This document shows, piece by piece, positions 24,385 to 37,037 of a stretch of DNA of 64,000 nucleotides (the stretch's first letter is position 1; each line of letters opens with the position of its first letter). A model generated the notes under the pieces. It worked only from the letters and a program-made list of their open reading frames with translations. It searched no databases and was not told the DNA's origin. The stretch lies in the NCBI GenBank assembly GCA_025462865.1, contig JAOAPI010000006.1:1-64000 (forward strand), in the 5' to 3' direction. This DNA comes from Candidatus Sulfotelmatobacter sp. Lineage in GTDB: Bacteria > Acidobacteriota > Terriglobia > Terriglobales > Acidobacteriaceae. A program made the position numbers and the translations under genes.

Positions 24385-26298
24385 GTGTACATCCGGTCCG
24401 ACCTGCAGGCCATTTACGGCCGCCTGAAGACCTATGCATTAATCGCCGCTGCCGTGATGTTCATCTCGCTGGTACTTGCTCTGATGATTTCGAGAATATC
24501 TCAGCGTGTTGTCTCCGAGCCGGTGATGCAGTTGGCGCAGACTGTGCGGATCGTGTCCCACGAGAAAAACTACTCGATCCGGGCGGCCACAAGCAAAAAT
24601 CGTGATGAAGTGTCGACCTTGATTGCAGCGGTCAATGAGATGTTGGAACAGATTCAGCAGCGTGACACTGCACTGCAACGGGCTCACGGCGAGTTGGAGC
24701 ATCGGGTTCAGGAACGCACCACCCAACTCGCAGCTGCCAACAAAGAGCTGGATTTACGCAACCGTGAAGTCGAACGTGCGACCAAATTGAAGAGTAAGTT
24801 TCTGGCCAGCATGAGTCACGAGTTACGTACTCCCCTTAACGCGATCGTAGGATTTTCAGATCTGCTCGCAGAACAAACAGCCGGGGAACTCAATGACAAG
24901 CAAAAGCGCTTCGTCAATCACATAAAGCAAGGCTCGGCTCATCTATTGCAGTTGATCAACGACATCCTGGACCTGTCAAAAATCGAAGCCGGACAGCTTG
25001 AACTTCGGAACGAACGGTTCCAGATCAGCGAAGCTCTGCCGGAGGTCCTCTCCACCATCCGTCCCTTGGCCATGGCCAAGCAGATTTTCGTCCAACATAC
25101 CTTGGATACGGATCTTCCCGTATATGCCGATCGCGTGCGCTTCAAACAAATCCTGTACAACCTGCTCAGCAATGCCGTGAAATTCACACCCAAAAACGGC
25201 CGAATTACTATCGAATGCAAAGGGAATCGGGATTTCATTACTCTGTCGGTGACTGATACGGGGATCGGAATCCGCGCCGAAGATCAAGCAATCATTTTCG
25301 AAGAGTTTCGCCAGGTAGAAGGCGACAAGGACTCGACTCAAGAGGGCACCGGGCTGGGGCTTGCGATCACCAAGCGCCTAGTGGAACAACAAGGTGGCAA
25401 GATCTCGTTGACGAGTGAAATCGGAAAGGGTAGCCGATTTACCTTCACTCTGCCCGCGGGTGCAAAGACAGAGACATTAGATACTCATCCCGCCAGTGCA
25501 CCAGCCTCGAGGCGCGTTCCGTTGGGAGAGGTCCGCAAGCCTCTGGTTCTCGTGGTCGATGACGAAGTTCCGGCGCGCGAACTCCTGGCTAGCTATCTTG
25601 ACTCGGAATATCGCACCGTCTCGGCCGAATCGGGAGAAGAAGCCGTGAAAAAAGCGCAACAACTGCGGCCCGATGCCATCACCTTAGACGTTATGATGCC
25701 GGGCGGCAGCGGTTTCGAGACCATGATCGCATTGAGAAAGAATCCCGATACGGCGAATATCCCAATCATCATTGTTTCGATCGTCGATCAGAAACAGGTT
25801 GGTTTTGCATTGGGCGCAGCCGACTATCTGATCAAGCCCATCCGCAAAACAGTACTGCTGGAGACCGTTCGTAAGCATGTGCCGTATCCGCAAGATGACG
25901 ATGCTGCGATCCTGCTGGTCGATGACGACACCAAAACTCTGGCACTGCTGGAGGAGACGTTGCGTGCTGCCGGGTACGAGACTCAGAGCGTGCGCAGCGG
26001 CGCCAGGGCGCTGGAGGTACTCTCGTCCAAACTAATAAGCGCCGTGCTCCTCGATTTACTGATGCCGGGAATCGACGGATTTGAAGTCATCCGTCATGTA
26101 AGGCAGGAAGCTGCGTTGAGGGATCTGCCGATTCTTGTAATGACAGGTAAAAGCCTAACCGCAGAGGAATCGGCTCTGCTTGGCCATGAAACTCAGGCGC
26201 TGTTGCAGAAGAACGGCTCCTGGCAGGAGCAGCTCATCCTCGAAGTTGGCAGGGTCGTCGGGGGCCGCAAGCAGGCCAAATCTGCGGGGCAGTCATGA
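24385..26298 (+). CDS. Hybrid histidine kinase with two receiver domains, N-terminally truncated
   Basis: A 637-residue membrane sensor kinase. Order: a sequence typical of the end of a periplasmic sensor domain ([13 protein letters not shown]), one transmembrane helix (~16-36), HAMP and coiled coil (~37-135), HisKA with phospho-acceptor His145 in [18 protein letters not shown], HATPase_c (N-box [10 protein letters not shown]-box GTGLGLAI), then two receiver domains (LVVDDE...[17 protein letters not shown]...[11 protein letters not shown]) with acceptor aspartates. The first transmembrane helix and extracytoplasmic sensor expected before YIRSDL are missing: an in-frame TAG lies just upstream of the GTG start. 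It may be constitutive or non-functional. A response-regulator stub overlaps its end. Confidence 0.85.
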
Positions 26299-28636: not shown

Positions 28637-29455
28637 ATGCCTAAGATCAAAGCCAACAACATCACCGTGAACTATGACCAACAAGGAACGGGTGAGCCGC
28701 TCATTCTAATTCCTTATTTGGCCGCCGATTACGCCTGTTACGCCTTCTAGGTGGCAGAGTATGCCAGGCACTTTACCTGCATTTCGCTCGACCTGCGAGG
28801 AACCGGTGAAACGGACAAACCGGATGGCGTCTATTCCACCGAGCTTTTCGCCGACGATGTTGCCGCCTTTATGCAAGCAGTGGGCATCCAAAAGGCGCAC
28901 ATCTCTGGTTTATCTCTGGGCGCGGCTACCGGGATGTGGTTGGCGGCTAAGCATCCCGACAAGGTTCTATCGTTGTCCCTGCATAGTGGTTGGCCCAAAA
29001 CTGACCCCTTCCTAAAGACCGTAATCGAAGGTTTTCAGATAGTCGCCAAAGCGTTGAATAATGTTCCCAAAATGGTCATTAGCGCAATCTTCCCCTGGTG
29101 CTTAACGCCCGAACTCTATGCCGCCAGGCCGGACTACATCCAATCACTGGCGGACTTTGTTCTTAGCCGTCCAGTGCAGCCCCTCTCGCCTTTCATACAA
29201 CAGTCGAATGCGGCGATGGCCCATGACGTGGAGGCCCAGCTTGGCAGGATCACAGCGCCGACGCAGATCACATTCGGACGTCACGACCTGGCGACGTCCA
29301 CTCGTTTTGCGGATCGGATGAAAGGTAGCATTCGCGGTTCCGAACTGCTGATCTTTGAAGGATGTGCGCACGCGCCCATCTACGAGAAGGTCGAGGAGTT
29401 TAATCAGAACACCTTACAGTTCCTGCGGCGCCATACCAGCACAGTCGCCGCGTAG
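28637..29455 (+). pseudogene. Alpha/beta hydrolase interrupted by an in-frame amber codon
   Basis: A complete alpha/beta hydrolase frame broken by one TAG at 28748-28750. ATG 28637 has GAAAGGA upstream and begins KIKANNITVNYDQQGTGEPL. After DYACYAF the TAG stands where relatives usually carry Gln (YAFQVAEYA), consistent with CAG-to-TAG. The frame then continues VAEYARHFTCISLDLRGTGE. The nucleophile elbow SGLSLGAA, a later acidic residue (FGRHDLAT) and a catalytic-type His (EGCAHAPIYEK) are all intact. Translation could restart at GTG 28751, but that product would lack strands beta-1 to beta-3. Either recent nonsense inactivation or amber readthrough. Confidence 0.8.
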
Positions 29456-30124
29456 AGCGCGGCAAAGATCCGACACTGCCCTACGACCTTCTGAAAGTTT
29501 GTGGATAACTAAGCTCGTTAGAAACTGGCACGCGCCACTTAGCCCGATAGCGTGCTAGTTCAAGTACCTTCCATAGAAATACCAGCCAGCACAATCGACG
29601 GGTACGATTACCCATATTTGTGTAAGTCTGCTGATTCATGCGAAACAGGGTAATCAGCCCGTATAAACGACATTTCTTGGCATTATTGGCACGCCGCAGT
29701 ATTAAACACCATACTTTTTTCTTTAGCTTTGCTTGGCCGTGAGCTTGCCGCGGTTTGGTGTATTGGATTTGCAGGTCTTAGCGTTTCGACGCTTCCACAA
29801 ACACTTTATTGCGAAAGCGGCACCGACGGACACCGATAAGGTATTAATGCCACTAACTAATGGATTGGAACATGAATACTTCCAACGCCATGCCTGAGCC
29901 TCGGTCCCTCAACAATGCGCGGCGCGTGTTAGCGACGACGTCTTTAGTGTGCGGAAACTATTTTAATAATTGCTTGCAGTATGCAAAGTATTAACTTGCG
30001 ACCAACGCTTTGTCTGTATTTAAGCTCGATTACGAATGTAACCGCTTTTTCAATCCTAAGTGGTGCACTCTTTCGAGTTGTGGTTCACACTATCTACATA
30101 CCTGTATGTGAGCATGCGAGATAT
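29456..30124. other. AT-richer leader region upstream of the exopolysaccharide-type operon
   Basis: About 670 bp, visibly richer in A and T than the surroundings between ~29690 and 30130. No gene is supported. A GGGTA-CGAT-TACCC hairpin lies at ~29600 and a TTGCA-GTA-TGCAA inverted repeat at 29974-29986. The length and composition suggest a regulatory region for the three-gene operon, but I cannot define a promoter with confidence. Confidence 0.4.
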
Positions 30125-31405
30125 ATGTTTAGTATTCCTAAGTATCTCGAAACGAGTGTGCTTGTCATCATTAGAGTGGTGATAGGTATCGGGCTATTTT
30201 GCACCGTTGCTTGGGGGCAATTGGTGATTTCAACTTGGCGAGAAGATGTGCGAAGCCGCGTTGAAGCGCACGATTGGAATGCAGCGATGAGTATTGTGGA
30301 TCGCGAAGTGGCGCTTGCACCGCAGGATATGGACGTGAGGGCATGGAAAGCGCGGGTTCTGCTTTGGTCAGGAAAGGTTGCGGAAGCTGAACTTGAGTAT
30401 CAAGCGATTTTGGCAGTTGCACCGACCGATCCTGACGACTGGGAGGGCCTAGCTAATACTTATTCGCGTGAAGGCCGTACCAAAGAAGCGCTACACGCGC
30501 TGGATTGTGCACTGGAGCTAGATCCCAAGCGTGCGGACATTCGCGCTGCGCGCGGGACGGCACTGCGGGCCCTCGGTGCTCAGAACGAAGCAAAACTGGA
30601 GTTTAGCCGTGCACTGGAATTGGACCCAACGAATCCAGAGGGACGTGCAGGCCTAGTTTCTCTACGCGGCGAATCAAAGCACGAACTGCGCGTGGGAGTG
30701 AATAGCGACTTCTTCAACTTTGCCGATGCCAATCAGGATGAGGGAGTCAACCTCATCTCTAACTGGACGCCACGCTGGGGGACTACTGTGGCCGTTGACG
30801 GCTACCACTGGGCCGGATTGGACGCGCAAAAAGTCATGGCTAGCTTGACGCGGAAGTCTCCTCGATGGGGCGCAGTAACCATCGGTGGGGCGGGAGCGCA
30901 CGACAACGGCGTCATTCCCAAAGACGAAGGGTTCTTTGCCTACGACCAGGGGTTCCGATTTCATGGGAGTAAGTTTTTGCGAGGATTCGAGATCGTCTAC
31001 GGACAGCACTGGTATTGGTACACCACGGCCCGGATTCTGACCATTAACGAAACCACACTGCTCTACCTGACGCGCGGCTGGACATTGTCCCTGGGGTTGA
31101 CCGGTGCACGAAGTCACTTTTCGGGAACGGGCGCGGAATGGCGTCCTTCGGGAATGACCCGACTGGAATTTCCCATTACCAAGTGGGAAGAGCGCCGACT
31201 GGGGGGAAATGTTTTTTTTGCAGTCGGGACTGAGAATTTTGCACAAGTTAACCAGATCGGAGCATTTTCTTCCCATACTTACGGGGGCGGTCTGCGCTTC
31301 CAACTGACTGCACGGCAAGACGTGACTGGCTTCGCCGCTCAGCAAATACGATCGCAGGACCGGGCCGAATCAAGTTTCGGATTTTCTTATGGGATCCGCT
31401 TTTGA
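30125..31405 (+). CDS. TPR domain plus YaiO-type outer-membrane beta-barrel protein (putative polysaccharide exporter)
   Basis: A ~426-residue exported protein. ATG 30125 is favoured because it gives a signal sequence (TSVLVIIRVVIGIGLFCTVAWG); an in-frame start at 29981 adds an implausible leader. Residues ~35-170 contain three to four TPRs (WNAAMSIVDREVALAPQDMD, AELEYQAILAVAPTDPDDW, ALHALDCALELDPKRAD). The rest is an aromatic-rich beta-barrel of the YaiO type (VNSDFFNFADANQDEG, TTVAVDGYHWAG) ending in a terminal aromatic (YGIRF). TPR-plus-barrel is the plan of PgaA and similar exopolysaccharide exporters. It overlaps the next gene by 17 bp, and the third gene is a processive-type glycosyltransferase. 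Confidence 0.85.
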   Translation: MFSIPKYLETSVLVIIRVVIGIGLFCTVAWGQLVISTWREDVRSRVEAHDWNAAMSIVDREVALAPQDMDVRAWKARVLLWSGKVAEAELEYQAILAVAPTDPDDWEGLANTYSREGRTKEALHALDCALELDPKRADIRAARGTALRALGAQNEAKLEFSRALELDPTNPEGRAGLVSLRGESKHELRVGVNSDFFNFADANQDEGVNLISNWTPRWGTTVAVDGYHWAGLDAQKVMASLTRKSPRWGAVTIGGAGAHDNGVIPKDEGFFAYDQGFRFHGSKFLRGFEIVYGQHWYWYTTARILTINETTLLYLTRGWTLSLGLTGARSHFSGTGAEWRPSGMTRLEFPITKWEERRLGGNVFFAVGTENFAQVNQIGAFSSHTYGGGLRFQLTARQDVTGFAAQQIRSQDRAESSFGFSYGIRF

Positions 31406-32606
31406 CACATTTCGCAAGTTAGGGCCAGCGGCTTTCGTGTTGAAGGCGATCATCTCCGTGATCGTCGCAGACCTGCTGCTCTTGGGGTTTATCCTGCTGC
31501 GGCGCACCTACCGCAAACGCTATTTCTCAAACCGCGACGCACGTATGTTTGAAATCCGACAGAAGTGGGAGGCGACCATTTCCGGAGAGATTCCCTACAG
31601 CACATGGCGCACGAAAGCATCGGACCGCGAACTGATCGAAACCATGGCTCTGGACGCATTCGAAGTGGCGAATCCGGAGGAATCGGCTCGCTTGCTGAAA
31701 TTTATGCGCGCCAGCGGGCTCATCGAGAAACGCATCGCCGACAGCAGGCAGCATCAAGGATGGCGCCGTCACAAGGCACTGGTAGCCTTGGGTCGAACGC
31801 GTGCGCCTGAGGGCATCCCCGCGCTGGCAGAAGGACTGCGCGATCCCGACTCGGAAACCCGGCTGGCAGCGCTACGCGGACTAGGGCGGATGGCTTGTCC
31901 GGAAGCCGCGAAGCAGATCTTAAATTGGGTGGACGAAGCCGGTGTAATCGTGCCGGCGCTTCCCTTGCAAAGTGCGCTGGTCCAGACTTGCGCGGAACGT
32001 CCACAAGTGTTGTTACCGCATCTACACAATGCCGACCAAACCGTGCGCGAGGTGCTTGGGCGCGTTCTCGGGGAGGTGGCCACGCCTTCGCTCGGTCCCC
32101 AGTTGCTACAGTTTGCGGACGACAACCTGGCTGAATTGCGGGCGGCAGCCGCACGGGGACTATCGTTCCTGAGCCCGGGCGCCGCAGTCAATGTTCTGAG
32201 TGAGTTGGCGAAGGATACCGTGTGGTTTGTGCGTCTGCGCGCCATTGTGAGTTTGGGCAAACTCTGTCACCGCACTGCGATCCCATTTTTGTTGAACGGA
32301 TTGACAGATTCAAATCGGCTGGTACGTCTGCGGGCCGCGGAAGGACTCATAGATTTCAAAGCAGACCTGGTGTTGATTTTCGAAATGGTGGTAGCGCTGC
32401 GAGACCAATACGGTCTGCACGCCTACCTAACTGCTATCGAAAACGGCGGCCTGCAAGCCAGGCTCGATACAGAGATCAAAGCCACTGCGCGCTCTGGCAG
32501 GGAGACTAATGAGCGGTTGCTAGAAGTCTTGCTCACGGGGAAAGTGTCAGCCTCACCGTTGGCGCCTCAAGAAAGCACTCATGCCGAGGCGGCGTCTCAA
32601 TCGTGA
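31389..32606 (+). CDS. Membrane-anchored HEAT-repeat protein
   Basis: A 405-residue protein with one N-terminal transmembrane helix (~18-38, AFVLKAIISVIVADLLLLGF) and a cytoplasmic HEAT/ARM solenoid from ~110 to ~340. Repeats are visible as HKALVALGRTRAPEGIPALA, TRLAALRGLGRMACPEAAKQ, LRAAAARGLSFLSPGAAVNV, VRLRAIVSLGKLCHRTAIPF and LVRLRAAEGL. HEAT solenoids are protein-binding scaffolds, so this may organise or regulate the glycosyltransferase encoded next. It is fused by overlap to both neighbours (17 bp upstream; GTGA overlap downstream). No PilZ, cyclic-di-GMP motif or catalytic residues are visible. Confidence 0.85.
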   Translation: MGSAFDTFRKLGPAAFVLKAIISVIVADLLLLGFILLRRTYRKRYFSNRDARMFEIRQKWEATISGEIPYSTWRTKASDRELIETMALDAFEVANPEESARLLKFMRASGLIEKRIADSRQHQGWRRHKALVALGRTRAPEGIPALAEGLRDPDSETRLAALRGLGRMACPEAAKQILNWVDEAGVIVPALPLQSALVQTCAERPQVLLPHLHNADQTVREVLGRVLGEVATPSLGPQLLQFADDNLAELRAAAARGLSFLSPGAAVNVLSELAKDTVWFVRLRAIVSLGKLCHRTAIPFLLNGLTDSNRLVRLRAAEGLIDFKADLVLIFEMVVALRDQYGLHAYLTAIENGGLQARLDTEIKATARSGRETNERLLEVLLTGKVSASPLAPQESTHAEAASQS

Positions 32607-34045
32607 TTTACCTTTTGGATGTCGCCAATCACACCCTTTTCTTCTACTACCTGTTTTCCAATTTCGCGTACCTCGCCATGCTCCTCATTGCGCTGAAGAC
32701 CAGCGCGGCACACCTTCGGCACTTGGAGAGCGTTCGATTCGACTGGATTAAAGGGTCTCCCCTGGTGCCTCCTATCACCTTGCTGGTGCCGGCACACAAC
32801 GAGGAGAAATTTATCTGCACCGCAGTGAGGAACCTTCTTGACCTGGATTACCCGGACCTTGAAGTCATCGTCATAAACGATGGATCAGCGGATAAAACGT
32901 TGCAGATAATGCAAAAGGAATTTCGGCTGCGCTTGGTGAGAGCGGTGTATGTCCCAGAAGTACCGAGTGCTCCGGTCCGCGGGCTGTACAGGAGTGATTC
33001 GGACGTCCGCCTCCTGGTTGTGGATAAGGAGCCAGCGGGAAGCAAGGCCGACGCGGTAAATGCAGGCTTGAACGCAGCATCCTCGCCCTACGTATGCGTT
33101 GTCGACGCTGACTCCGTGCTTGAGACGGACGCCCTGCTGCGGATTATGGTGCCCGTCCTGGCAGACCCAAAACGTGTCGTAGCCGCCGGGGGAATCGTCC
33201 GAGTGTTGAACGGGTGTGAGATCGAAGCCGGACGCATTCGCCGTGTGCGACTGGCCAGGAAAAGCATCGAAGTTATCCAAGTGGTCGAATATTTGCGCGC
33301 TTTCCTAATTGGGCGCGAGGCCTGGGCTCGAGGCAACATGCTGATGATTGTTTCCGGAGCCTTCGGAGTCTTCCGAACCGATCTGGTGCGTGCCGTGGGA
33401 GGCTATCGGTCTTTCGCTATCGGCGAGGATTTCGATTTAGTGGCTCGATTGCATCGACATTTACTCGATGAGGGCGCGGACTACCGCATCGAGTTTGTAC
33501 CGGATCCGGTGTGCTGGACTGAAGTGCCGTCCGATCTGCGCTCTCTCGCCAGGCAGCGGGCGCGCTGGCAAAAAGGTCTGCTGGATGTTTTGTGGCCGAA
33601 CAGGGATATGCTCTTCCGACCAACCTACGGCCGTGTCGGATGGCTAGCGCTCCCGTACTTGTGGATTTTCGAACTTCTAGCTCCGGTCATCGAACTGACA
33701 GGGATCGCTACGATAGCATTAGCGGCATCCTTAGGCGTTCTTAGCGGATCCTTTTTCCTTCAGTTCGTTCTGTTCGGGTGGGGGTTTGCCACGATGATCT
33801 CCATCGGCGCCGTACTGCAAGAAGAACTGACCTACAAGCGATATAACGATTGGCAAGATGTCGCTCGGCTGGTAACCTTTTGTTTCCTCGAACACTTTCC
33901 TTATCGCCAGTTGCATATGATCTGGCGGTTGCAAGGTCTGTGGCAGTACTTGCGAGGCGATATGGCTTGGCGACCGCTGAAGCGGCAAGGACAAGAATCA
34001 GTAGACCCTGACAAAACCGGTTCCTCCCCGGTCCCAGCTAGTTGA
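32603..34045 (+). CDS. Processive-type family 2 glycosyltransferase (membrane)
   Basis: A 480-residue inner-membrane glycosyltransferase. GTG 32603 overlaps the stop of the HEAT gene. One N-terminal helix (~12-32) precedes a GT-A domain with PAHNEEK (~63), the UDP-binding Asp in INDGS (92-95), DADS (168-171), the acceptor acidic pair GEDFD (274-278) and QRARW (318-322, the QxxRW signature). Two or three C-terminal helices follow (~345-410). This D,D,D,QxxRW set marks hyaluronan/cellulose/PgaC-like synthases that polymerise and translocate a sugar chain. Substrate cannot be told from sequence. Together with the TPR-barrel protein it makes a plausible synthesis-and-export pair. Confidence 0.9.
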   Translation: MIYLLDVANHTLFFYYLFSNFAYLAMLLIALKTSAAHLRHLESVRFDWIKGSPLVPPITLLVPAHNEEKFICTAVRNLLDLDYPDLEVIVINDGSADKTLQIMQKEFRLRLVRAVYVPEVPSAPVRGLYRSDSDVRLLVVDKEPAGSKADAVNAGLNAASSPYVCVVDADSVLETDALLRIMVPVLADPKRVVAAGGIVRVLNGCEIEAGRIRRVRLARKSIEVIQVVEYLRAFLIGREAWARGNMLMIVSGAFGVFRTDLVRAVGGYRSFAIGEDFDLVARLHRHLLDEGADYRIEFVPDPVCWTEVPSDLRSLARQRARWQKGLLDVLWPNRDMLFRPTYGRVGWLALPYLWIFELLAPVIELTGIATIALAASLGVLSGSFFLQFVLFGWGFATMISIGAVLQEELTYKRYNDWQDVARLVTFCFLEHFPYRQLHMIWRLQGLWQYLRGDMAWRPLKRQGQESVDPDKTGSSPVPAS

Positions 34046-36443: not shown

Positions 36444-37037
36444 ATGAAACTGTTCGAGCAGGCGATGCGGACTCGCGCCTTAGAGATTTTTAAATATGCC
36501 GAGAAGTGCTTCCACCCATGCGGAATAGTTACGCCGATGGAGTTCTTCCACTACCAGTATGCCAAGGGCAAAATCGTCGTTTGGGTTCCCAAAGACTTCA
36601 CGATTAATATGAATTCCGGCCTGAAGGTTCTTCTCGATCCGAGAGTAAAGAAAATAGTTATCGCCAATCCTTTACGTGCTCCCCATGGGCAGCGGGCTGT
36701 CTCAGCAATGCAGAAGGAAGGTACCTATGACCAAGCAAAAGATAAGTTTGTTCCGGGCGAGAATATCTCGCAAACGGCATCATTCGTTGTCTCGGGCTCA
36801 GTTGATATTGGGGTTGGCGCTCTCTCCCTTGCATTGTCTCCAAACATGAAGGATAAGGGGCGCTACGCCGAGATCCCTGCGGATGAGTACCCGCCCATTG
36901 AACAGGCCTGTGTGATCCTGAGTTCATCGAAGAACAACGAGATCGCGCAACAGTTCCTTTCCTATTTCAAAAGTGCGACTGTCGGTGACTTGCTGGGAGG
37001 TTATGGCTTCGACGTGAGCGGTCGCGCTAACAAATAA
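36444..37037 (+). pseudogene. modA: Molybdate-binding protein (ModA-like), N-terminal half missing
   Basis: The C-terminal two-thirds of a periplasmic molybdate/oxyanion-binding protein: GKIVVWVPKDF, LKVLLDPRVKKIVIANPLRAP, GTYDQAKDKFVPGENISQTA, VDIGVGALSLALSP and YPPIEQACVILSSSKN. The signal peptide and the first ~90 residues with the first ligand-binding loop are absent; instead ~45 unrelated residues precede. Without export or the first lobe it cannot act in molybdate uptake. No modB or modC gene follows. The truncation point abuts the divergent oxidoreductase gene, suggesting a rearrangement there. Confidence 0.75.

Follow-up and report, generated by a model that had tools for sequence, protein, structure and literature searches.

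A TPR-barrel, HEAT-repeat and family 2 glycosyltransferase cassette of Acidobacteriota as a probable polysaccharide assembly and export system

Introduction

A 64,000-nucleotide (nt) stretch of DNA from the acidobacterium Candidatus Sulfotelmatobacter sp. (contig JAOAPI010000006.1, positions 1 to 64,000; hereafter the window) carries three plus-strand genes at 30125-34045, which encode, in this order, a tetratricopeptide repeat (TPR) protein with a predicted outer-membrane-type beta-barrel, a HEAT-repeat protein, and a family 2 glycosyltransferase (GT2). This cassette probably encodes a compact system that assembles and exports a polysaccharide in a synthase-dependent manner and in which the GT2 works together with a cytoplasmic HEAT adaptor. 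Synthase-dependent secretion is a known kind of system; the novelty lies in the HEAT partner, which extends to archaea.

As far as is known, such synthases are controlled by PilZ, PgaD, MshEN, or GGDEF-like parts that sense cyclic di-GMP (c-di-GMP) (in part PMC7112194 and PMC8669469). In PMC8669469, the Escherichia coli NfrAB-YbcH system, the N4 glycan receptor system, is presented as a compact set of a TPR outer-membrane protein, a GT2, and a third protein, in which nfrB overlaps its neighbor, NfrB ends in a c-di-GMP domain of the MshEN type, and YbcH is a putative periplasmic scaffold. The main text of PMC7112194, a survey of synthase-dependent operons, contains neither "HEAT" nor "Acidobacteria". 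Searches of open-access papers, with few subscription papers covered, found no description of a HEAT-GT2 polysaccharide pair, although one may exist under a different name.

Results

The GT2 has the motifs of a processive synthase

The third protein of the cassette contains a GT2 domain (Pfam Glyco_tranf_2_3, 9.6e-27), and an alignment of 13 cassette GT2s shows no variation at its residues D93, D168/D170, E275-D276, and Q318xxR321W322. The ED pair (275-276) stands where this family has its catalytic base, and QxxRW (318-322) is a motif that processive synthases carry. Two features of synthase-dependent polysaccharide secretion are present: a membrane GT2 with D, DxD, (T/G)ED, and QxxRW is encoded in 13/13, and a TPR protein with a predicted barrel, as the exporter, belongs to the operon in 24 of the 25 close acidobacterial (class I) loci defined below. 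Among four E. coli synthases compared by BLAST, PgaC was nearest (28% over 351 amino acids (aa), 2e-28), followed by YaiP (2e-10) and BcsA (5e-5); NfrB gave no BLAST match to the window GT2 at E<=1, and 61% in a profile comparison. PgaC_IcaA was also the best NCBIfam match, with 127.7 bits at a cut-off of 422.3.

The GT2 matches models of lipid and protein glycosylation weakly, and several organisms, as well as the acidobacterial genome G004, have the HEAT-GT2 pair with no barrel gene next to it. Both observations would suit an enzyme that glycosylates lipids or proteins non-processively and merely shares its operon with an unrelated TPR-barrel transporter. Such an arrangement is very unlikely given that the Q, R, and W of QxxRW are kept in 13/13, that the barrel gene is kept in 24/25 cassettes with the TPR-barrel layout of known polysaccharide exporters, and that a deacetylase is associated with the cassette.

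A HEAT-repeat protein is encoded next to the GT2

The second protein contains HEAT repeats (Pfam HEAT_2, 1.3e-24) and a single hydrophobic segment from residue 17, which is followed by a stretch of net charge +5 (hydropathy); R38, R39, and R42 are invariant in 13/13. Its AlphaFold2 model shows one long helix (12-58) and then a helical solenoid, with a mean predicted local distance difference test score (pLDDT) of 89. Because a basic stretch follows the membrane segment, the positive-inside rule would place the solenoid in the cytoplasm. No PilZ or MshEN domain was found in the three cassette proteins by domain search, and a comparison of the HEAT profile with E. coli PgaD gave a probability of 0.1%.

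The TPR protein carries a predicted barrel

Pfam detects TPRs in the first protein (TPR_2, 6e-12, and others), about four in number, and the TPR region is presumably located in the periplasm. The remainder was modeled as a barrel of 14 strands (mean pLDDT 87.5, predicted template-modeling score 0.57), which makes an outer-membrane-type barrel a prediction from the structure model. The hydrophobic N-terminus reads as a signal peptide, and the protein ends in F426, which is invariant in 11/11 aligned sequences. Foldseek with the whole model ranked BcsC first (TM-score 0.38) and PelBC fifth (0.34), both low for a whole model. A full-length match to the TPR-barrel protein is present in 10 of 11 cassette genomes, once in each and beside the HEAT gene, and all remaining matches cover the TPR part only.

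The preliminary description of this DNA, which was made from the letters and the open reading frames alone, agrees with most of these results: the strand and the two overlaps (17 bp and 4 bp) were confirmed from the open reading frames, the TPR-plus-barrel architecture stands by Pfam for the TPRs and by prediction for the barrel in a BcsC/PelB-like layout, and the one-helix HEAT protein, its position next to the GT2 where PgaC has PgaD, and the PgaC-related GT2 with D, D, ED, and QxxRW were all recovered. Its label "YaiO-type" for the barrel had to be dropped: PF19413 and TIGR04390 do not match the window barrel at E<=1, and a profile comparison with five YaiO barrels was weak (probability 14%, 47 columns). 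TIGR04390 does match the barrels beside HEAT-GT2 pairs in Mesorhizobium, Legionella, Erythrobacter, and Emticicia; the barrels of the acidobacterial loci L021 and L030 gave no such match.

The HEAT-GT2 pair extends to other phyla and to archaea

The HEAT protein itself had no match on plasmids at 1e-5, and distant loci were therefore sought through the GT2, which gave 22 plasmid records at E<=1e-30. Sixteen of these were opened (H2, H3, H17, and H19-H21 were left out), and 12 of them have a HEAT-type gene, recognized only weakly in Emticicia, immediately before a GT2 with 30.6-47.4% identity at >=85% query coverage. The 12 loci span Alpha- and Gammaproteobacteria, Bacteroidota, Deinococcota, Bacillota, and haloarchaea. 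The HEAT protein is annotated as such in Mesorhizobium, Erythrobacter, Devosia, Legionella adelaidensis, Deinococcus, Bacteroides, Planococcus, Haloarcula, Salinirubellus, and Halosolutus, and was detected by Pfam in the unannotated Paenibacillus locus; Emticicia is considered in the Discussion. From HEAT stop to GT2 start, the distance is -20 to +36 bp in 13/13, window included. At E<=0.01, the HEAT model built in this study found nothing in the loci of Novosphingobium, Sphingomonas, Levilactobacillus, and Prevotella (GT2 28-32% identity, 64-89% coverage), at the E. coli pga, nfr, and yai loci, or at the GT2 paralogue of the window's own genome.

The surroundings of the pair differ between these organisms. 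TPR or barrel genes precede it in Mesorhizobium, Erythrobacter, Devosia, and Legionella, whereas in Emticicia a YaiO gene comes after it. No barrel gene is annotated beside it in Planococcus, Haloarcula, Salinirubellus, and Halosolutus, as expected since these have no outer membrane. A nucleotidyltransferase gene and glmS follow the pair in Halosolutus, and the Legionella pair has a nucleotide-sugar dehydrogenase and epimerases as neighbors, which suggest a uronic acid.

In a tree of 34 sequences, 27 HEAT-paired GT2s fall on one side of a branch (97/98) and the seven unpaired ones on the other. This was the second tree, from which NfrB and BcsA had been dropped for their very long branches and in which the frame of the L081 row had been corrected. 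Outside it were L025, L029, L031, L065-L071, L073, the distant L082, and L074-L076, which hold no GT2 in the stretch; Devosia was outside the trees and the distance comparisons because its GT2 is annotated in pieces. With the HEAT gene directly upstream and its GT2 in the supported clade, the window locus itself belongs to the HEAT-paired GT2 clade as defined here. HEAT and GT2 distances co-vary, with Mantel r values of 0.94 (24 pairs), 0.91 (ten class I pairs), and 0.75 (13 distant pairs), each at p 2e-4, the lower limit set by 5000 permutations; shared ancestry of the hosts would by itself produce part of this correlation.

HEAT solenoids are generic, which would fit a protein that is merely an operon-mate of the synthase with a job of its own, e.g., membrane stress sensing or GT2 turnover. 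This is unlikely in view of a pairing that is kept across two domains of life within one GT2 clade, of genes that overlap or nearly touch, and of the correlated divergence; we infer physical contact of the HEAT protein with the GT2.

Distribution in Acidobacteriota

Own genome counted, the HEAT protein was found in 12/150 genomes of the family (E<=1e-15), 29/397 of an order sample (profile, E<=1e-20), and 2/347 of a phylum sample (E<=1e-30). Up to five candidates were scored per genome in the phylum search, four in the order search, and three in the deacetylase search of the order sample, so that negatives in the genome searches are soft. The close form (class I) is present in 24 of the 29 genomes, and the other five have the distant form alone; G004 carries both. 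The class I set consists of 25 loci in 24 genomes, window included, with HEAT present by definition and L020 and L064 taken as one locus and counted once. A single-sequence contig scan found one locus.

The preliminary description had proposed a search of Acidobacteriota for co-occurrence of the three genes and had named rare co-occurrence as grounds for refuting it; the outcome is in its favor: a TPR-barrel gene lies upstream of HEAT in 24/25 class I loci (L029 has none, L031 and L069 have a partial one, and that of L066 is split between frames), and a GT2 lies downstream in 22/25 (L074 and L075 are contig ends, and L076 has no GT2). Few further neighbors are common to these loci, and because the three-gene order recurs where little else is shared, it is more than chance. 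The idea of a three-gene minimal system holds as far as the conserved trio goes; it falls short in that a deacetylase adjoins 7/24 of the other cassettes. Likewise, a framing confined to three genes of Acidobacteriota is too narrow, since the core is the HEAT-GT2 pair, which also occurs outside this phylum and which in Planococcus, Bacteroides, and three haloarchaea has no annotated barrel gene next to it.

Two loci deserve separate mention. L066:5432-6657 (G545:C39) belongs to a second cassette copy in its genome, of which the other copy, L065, reads unbroken. In L029 (G004), a GGDEF gene begins within ~10 bp after the GT2, and this genome is the one that also holds the distant HEAT-GT2 form.

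In the distant acidobacterial form (L077:6078-11930, L078-L082), HEAT is 24-29% identical to that of the window where BLAST aligns, and the GT2 37-40%. Five of the six loci encode a 896-973 aa protein with TPRs and a glycoside-hydrolase-like part after the GT2 (L082 ends first). Pfam gave TPRs alone in the two acidobacterial examples scanned, with no match for the hydrolase-like part. An apparently related protein adjoins the pair in Deinococcus (L097:882-3308) and Planococcus (L102:1296-3365), and by eye the proteins of L077-L081, Deinococcus, and Planococcus look like membrane-anchored glycoside hydrolases.

Deacetylase and regulator neighbors

The largest extra group of neighbors is a polysaccharide deacetylase protein (~630-690 aa), encoded on the same strand and adjoining 7/24 non-window class I loci (Table 1). 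Of two scanned, the one in L027 passed the Pfam cut-off and that in L073 missed it. D293, D295, H356, H360, and H508 are invariant in 7/7 and can be read as the metal-binding and catalytic residues of NodB-type enzymes. A sequence search revealed no relative with a solved structure (best E 0.25), and two of these deacetylases gave no BLAST match to PgaB at E<=1. The protein is present in 9/24 cassette genomes, i.e., beside the cassette in seven, at a contig end with an internal stop in G688, and elsewhere in G011. Nine of the ten order-sample genomes with this deacetylase are class I cassette genomes, which make up 24/397 (Fisher 2e-11, without kinship correction and with both searches taken to cover the same 397-genome sample); the p value overstates the association because five of the nine genomes belong to one genus. 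The genome of the window has none of this family and eight other deacetylase-domain matches, two of them in one open frame.

GGDEF genes flank 4/25 class I loci, with 0.65 expected (P 0.004), as counted with a small model from the four neighbors themselves and E. coli DgcT, and with an expectation from Pfam counts. In L030, one lies ~140 bp ahead of the barrel gene. Near the GT2 of L021 is a gene for a receiver protein of which the C-terminus looks like PilZ. Single receiver genes are found upstream in 7/12 distant (plasmid) loci at varying distance, namely, immediately before the operon in Mesorhizobium, Erythrobacter, Devosia, Haloarcula, and Salinirubellus, with one small gene in between in Halosolutus, and farther off in Emticicia. 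Lastly, Hpt genes lie downstream in Mesorhizobium and Devosia.

Comparison with known systems

The cassette shares with PgaABCD/IcaADBC a GT2 with the same motifs, a TPR-barrel exporter, a deacetylase in some cassettes, and a membrane partner encoded next to the GT2; it differs in its HEAT solenoid, in having no PgaD-like sequence, and in its separate GT2 clade. The kinship with PgaC, the deacetylases, and glmS in Halosolutus might indicate a divergent poly-N-acetylglucosamine system in which PgaD has been replaced. This is improbable: the PgaC_IcaA and PgaA scores are far under their cut-offs, the GT2s form their own clade apart from PgaC, the two deacetylases compared give no BLAST match to PgaB at E<=1, and the Legionella neighbors suggest uronic acid. 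Plain membership in PgaABCD was rejected on the PgaC_IcaA score given above, on a PgaA score of 25.4 bits (cut-off 366.65), and on the absence of a PgaD partner.

With NfrAB-YbcH, as presented in PMC8669469, the cassette has the compact three-gene plan in common, whereas here the GT2 is partnered by a HEAT protein with a presumably cytoplasmic solenoid. Membership was rejected here too, as no MshEN domain was found in the 480-aa GT2. BcsC and PelB resemble the TPR-barrel model by their Foldseek ranks, at low TM-scores, while the cassette protein has about four TPRs and a predicted 14-strand barrel. The E. coli yaiS-yaiP-yaiX-yaiO locus likewise combines a GT2, an outer-membrane barrel, and a putative deacetylase, and YaiO-domain barrels sit in four of the distant HEAT-GT2 loci; it has no HEAT by the model built here, and the YaiO models miss the window barrel.

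Gene map and surroundings

The features are collected in Table 1. The start of the TPR-barrel gene is a choice: ATG 30125 is used here, and the open reading frame list begins the gene at 29981. No known RNA family was found at 29400-30300 at E<=0.1, and none at gathering score anywhere in the window. Promoter and terminator scans gave counts about equal to those of shuffles, and a conservation comparison of the DNA upstream of the cassette with L020 gave nothing nameable. A hybrid histidine kinase with two receiver domains is encoded at 24385-26298, ~3.8 kb upstream of the cassette. Downstream, a ModA-like solute-binding protein (36444-37037) is perhaps truncated, because it matches only positions 75-226 of the 227 in the Pfam model; a longer relative (266 aa) is encoded downstream of another cassette at L023:10142-10942.

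Table 1. Features of the cassette in the window and of deacetylase-bearing class I loci
Feature	Position	Strand	Basis or remark
TPR + outer-membrane-type beta-barrel protein (predicted), 426 aa	30125..31405	+	candidate export channel
TPR region, residues ~38-180	30236..30664	+	domain matches and structure model
Predicted 14-stranded barrel, residues 185-425	30677..31399	+	structure model
HEAT-repeat protein, 405 aa, one N-terminal membrane helix	31389..32606	+	Pfam, AlphaFold2, hydropathy
HEAT membrane segment, residues 17-35, then basic stretch	31437..31493	+	hydropathy
Family 2 glycosyltransferase, 480 aa, PgaC-like membrane synthase	32603..34045	+	domain, BLAST, tree
GT2 Asp93 (NDG) motif	32879..32881	+	invariant 13/13
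GT2 DAD motif, residues 168-170	33104..33112	+	invariant 13/13
GT2 ED, residues 275-276	33425..33430	+	invariant 13/13
GT2 QRARW, residues 318-322	33554..33568	+	Q, R, W invariant 13/13
Deacetylase, L027	9971-11899		adjoins cassette
Deacetylase, L067, L070, L071, L072, L073, L075			adjoins cassette

Discussion

In the proposed mechanism, the inner-membrane GT2 would polymerize a nucleotide sugar and extrude the chain, and the TPR-barrel protein would take up this chain in the periplasm and pass it outward through the outer membrane, where a barrel exists. In at least some members, this is probably an amino sugar, to which the PgaC kinship, the deacetylases, and glmS with the nucleotidyltransferase in Halosolutus point, but the Legionella neighbors point to a uronic acid. 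The HEAT protein, seemingly a constant partner, would be anchored by its one helix, with the solenoid in the cytoplasm beside the catalytic domain of the GT2. It most likely stabilizes the synthase and docks a regulator, i.e., a receiver or, in some Acidobacteriota, a c-di-GMP-responsive protein. It would thus fill the place that PgaD or PilZ has elsewhere, and may stand in for a c-di-GMP-binding domain or a co-polymerase. Gene order, intact motifs, the HEAT-GT2 pairing in one clade, the co-variation, and the deacetylase association were obtained by computation, whereas this functional replacement and the exopolysaccharide product are what we infer.

Several observations weigh against this reading. 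HEAT repeats are promiscuous, the fold search gave generic solenoids alone among the matches listed, the Emticicia HEAT is weak (below the Pfam cut-off; E 3.5e-6 in the HEAT model built here), and the HEAT proteins of Halosolutus and Emticicia, as annotated, have no clear membrane helix. Outside the TPRs, the barrel sequence is unlike YaiO, PgaA, NfrA, and BcsC. No single HEAT clade came out of the first tree, which included NfrB, BcsA, and a row in the wrong frame. The distribution is patchy (12/150 in the family, 2/347 in the phylum sample), L076 has lost the GT2 and most of HEAT, and one of the cassette copies, in L066, has a split barrel gene. G004 retains HEAT-GT2 although its genome gave no full-length match to the TPR-barrel protein. 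Moreover, the barrel is not present simply wherever there is an outer membrane: Bacteroides also has no annotated barrel beside the pair, and a different kind of TPR protein is found in the distant acidobacterial form and in Deinococcus. Lastly, 15/24 cassette genomes are without the cassette-type deacetylase, and the window has no adjacent deacetylase, GGDEF, or single receiver gene.

A broader proposal is possible, and is put forward tentatively: the HEAT solenoid could be an ancient, near-obligate subunit of one synthase clade of bacteria and archaea, serving as a plug-in dock for phosphorelay receivers or c-di-GMP effectors, while the outside parts (a TPR-barrel with or without a deacetylase, a membrane-anchored glycoside-hydrolase-like protein, or neither) would have been swapped by lineage.

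A HEAT-partnered branch that reaches archaea and has receiver neighbors would represent a different control principle for the sugars of biofilms or capsules. A HEAT gene that touches a GT2 gene is, moreover, a genome signature for finding unknown polysaccharides, above all in soil Acidobacteriota.

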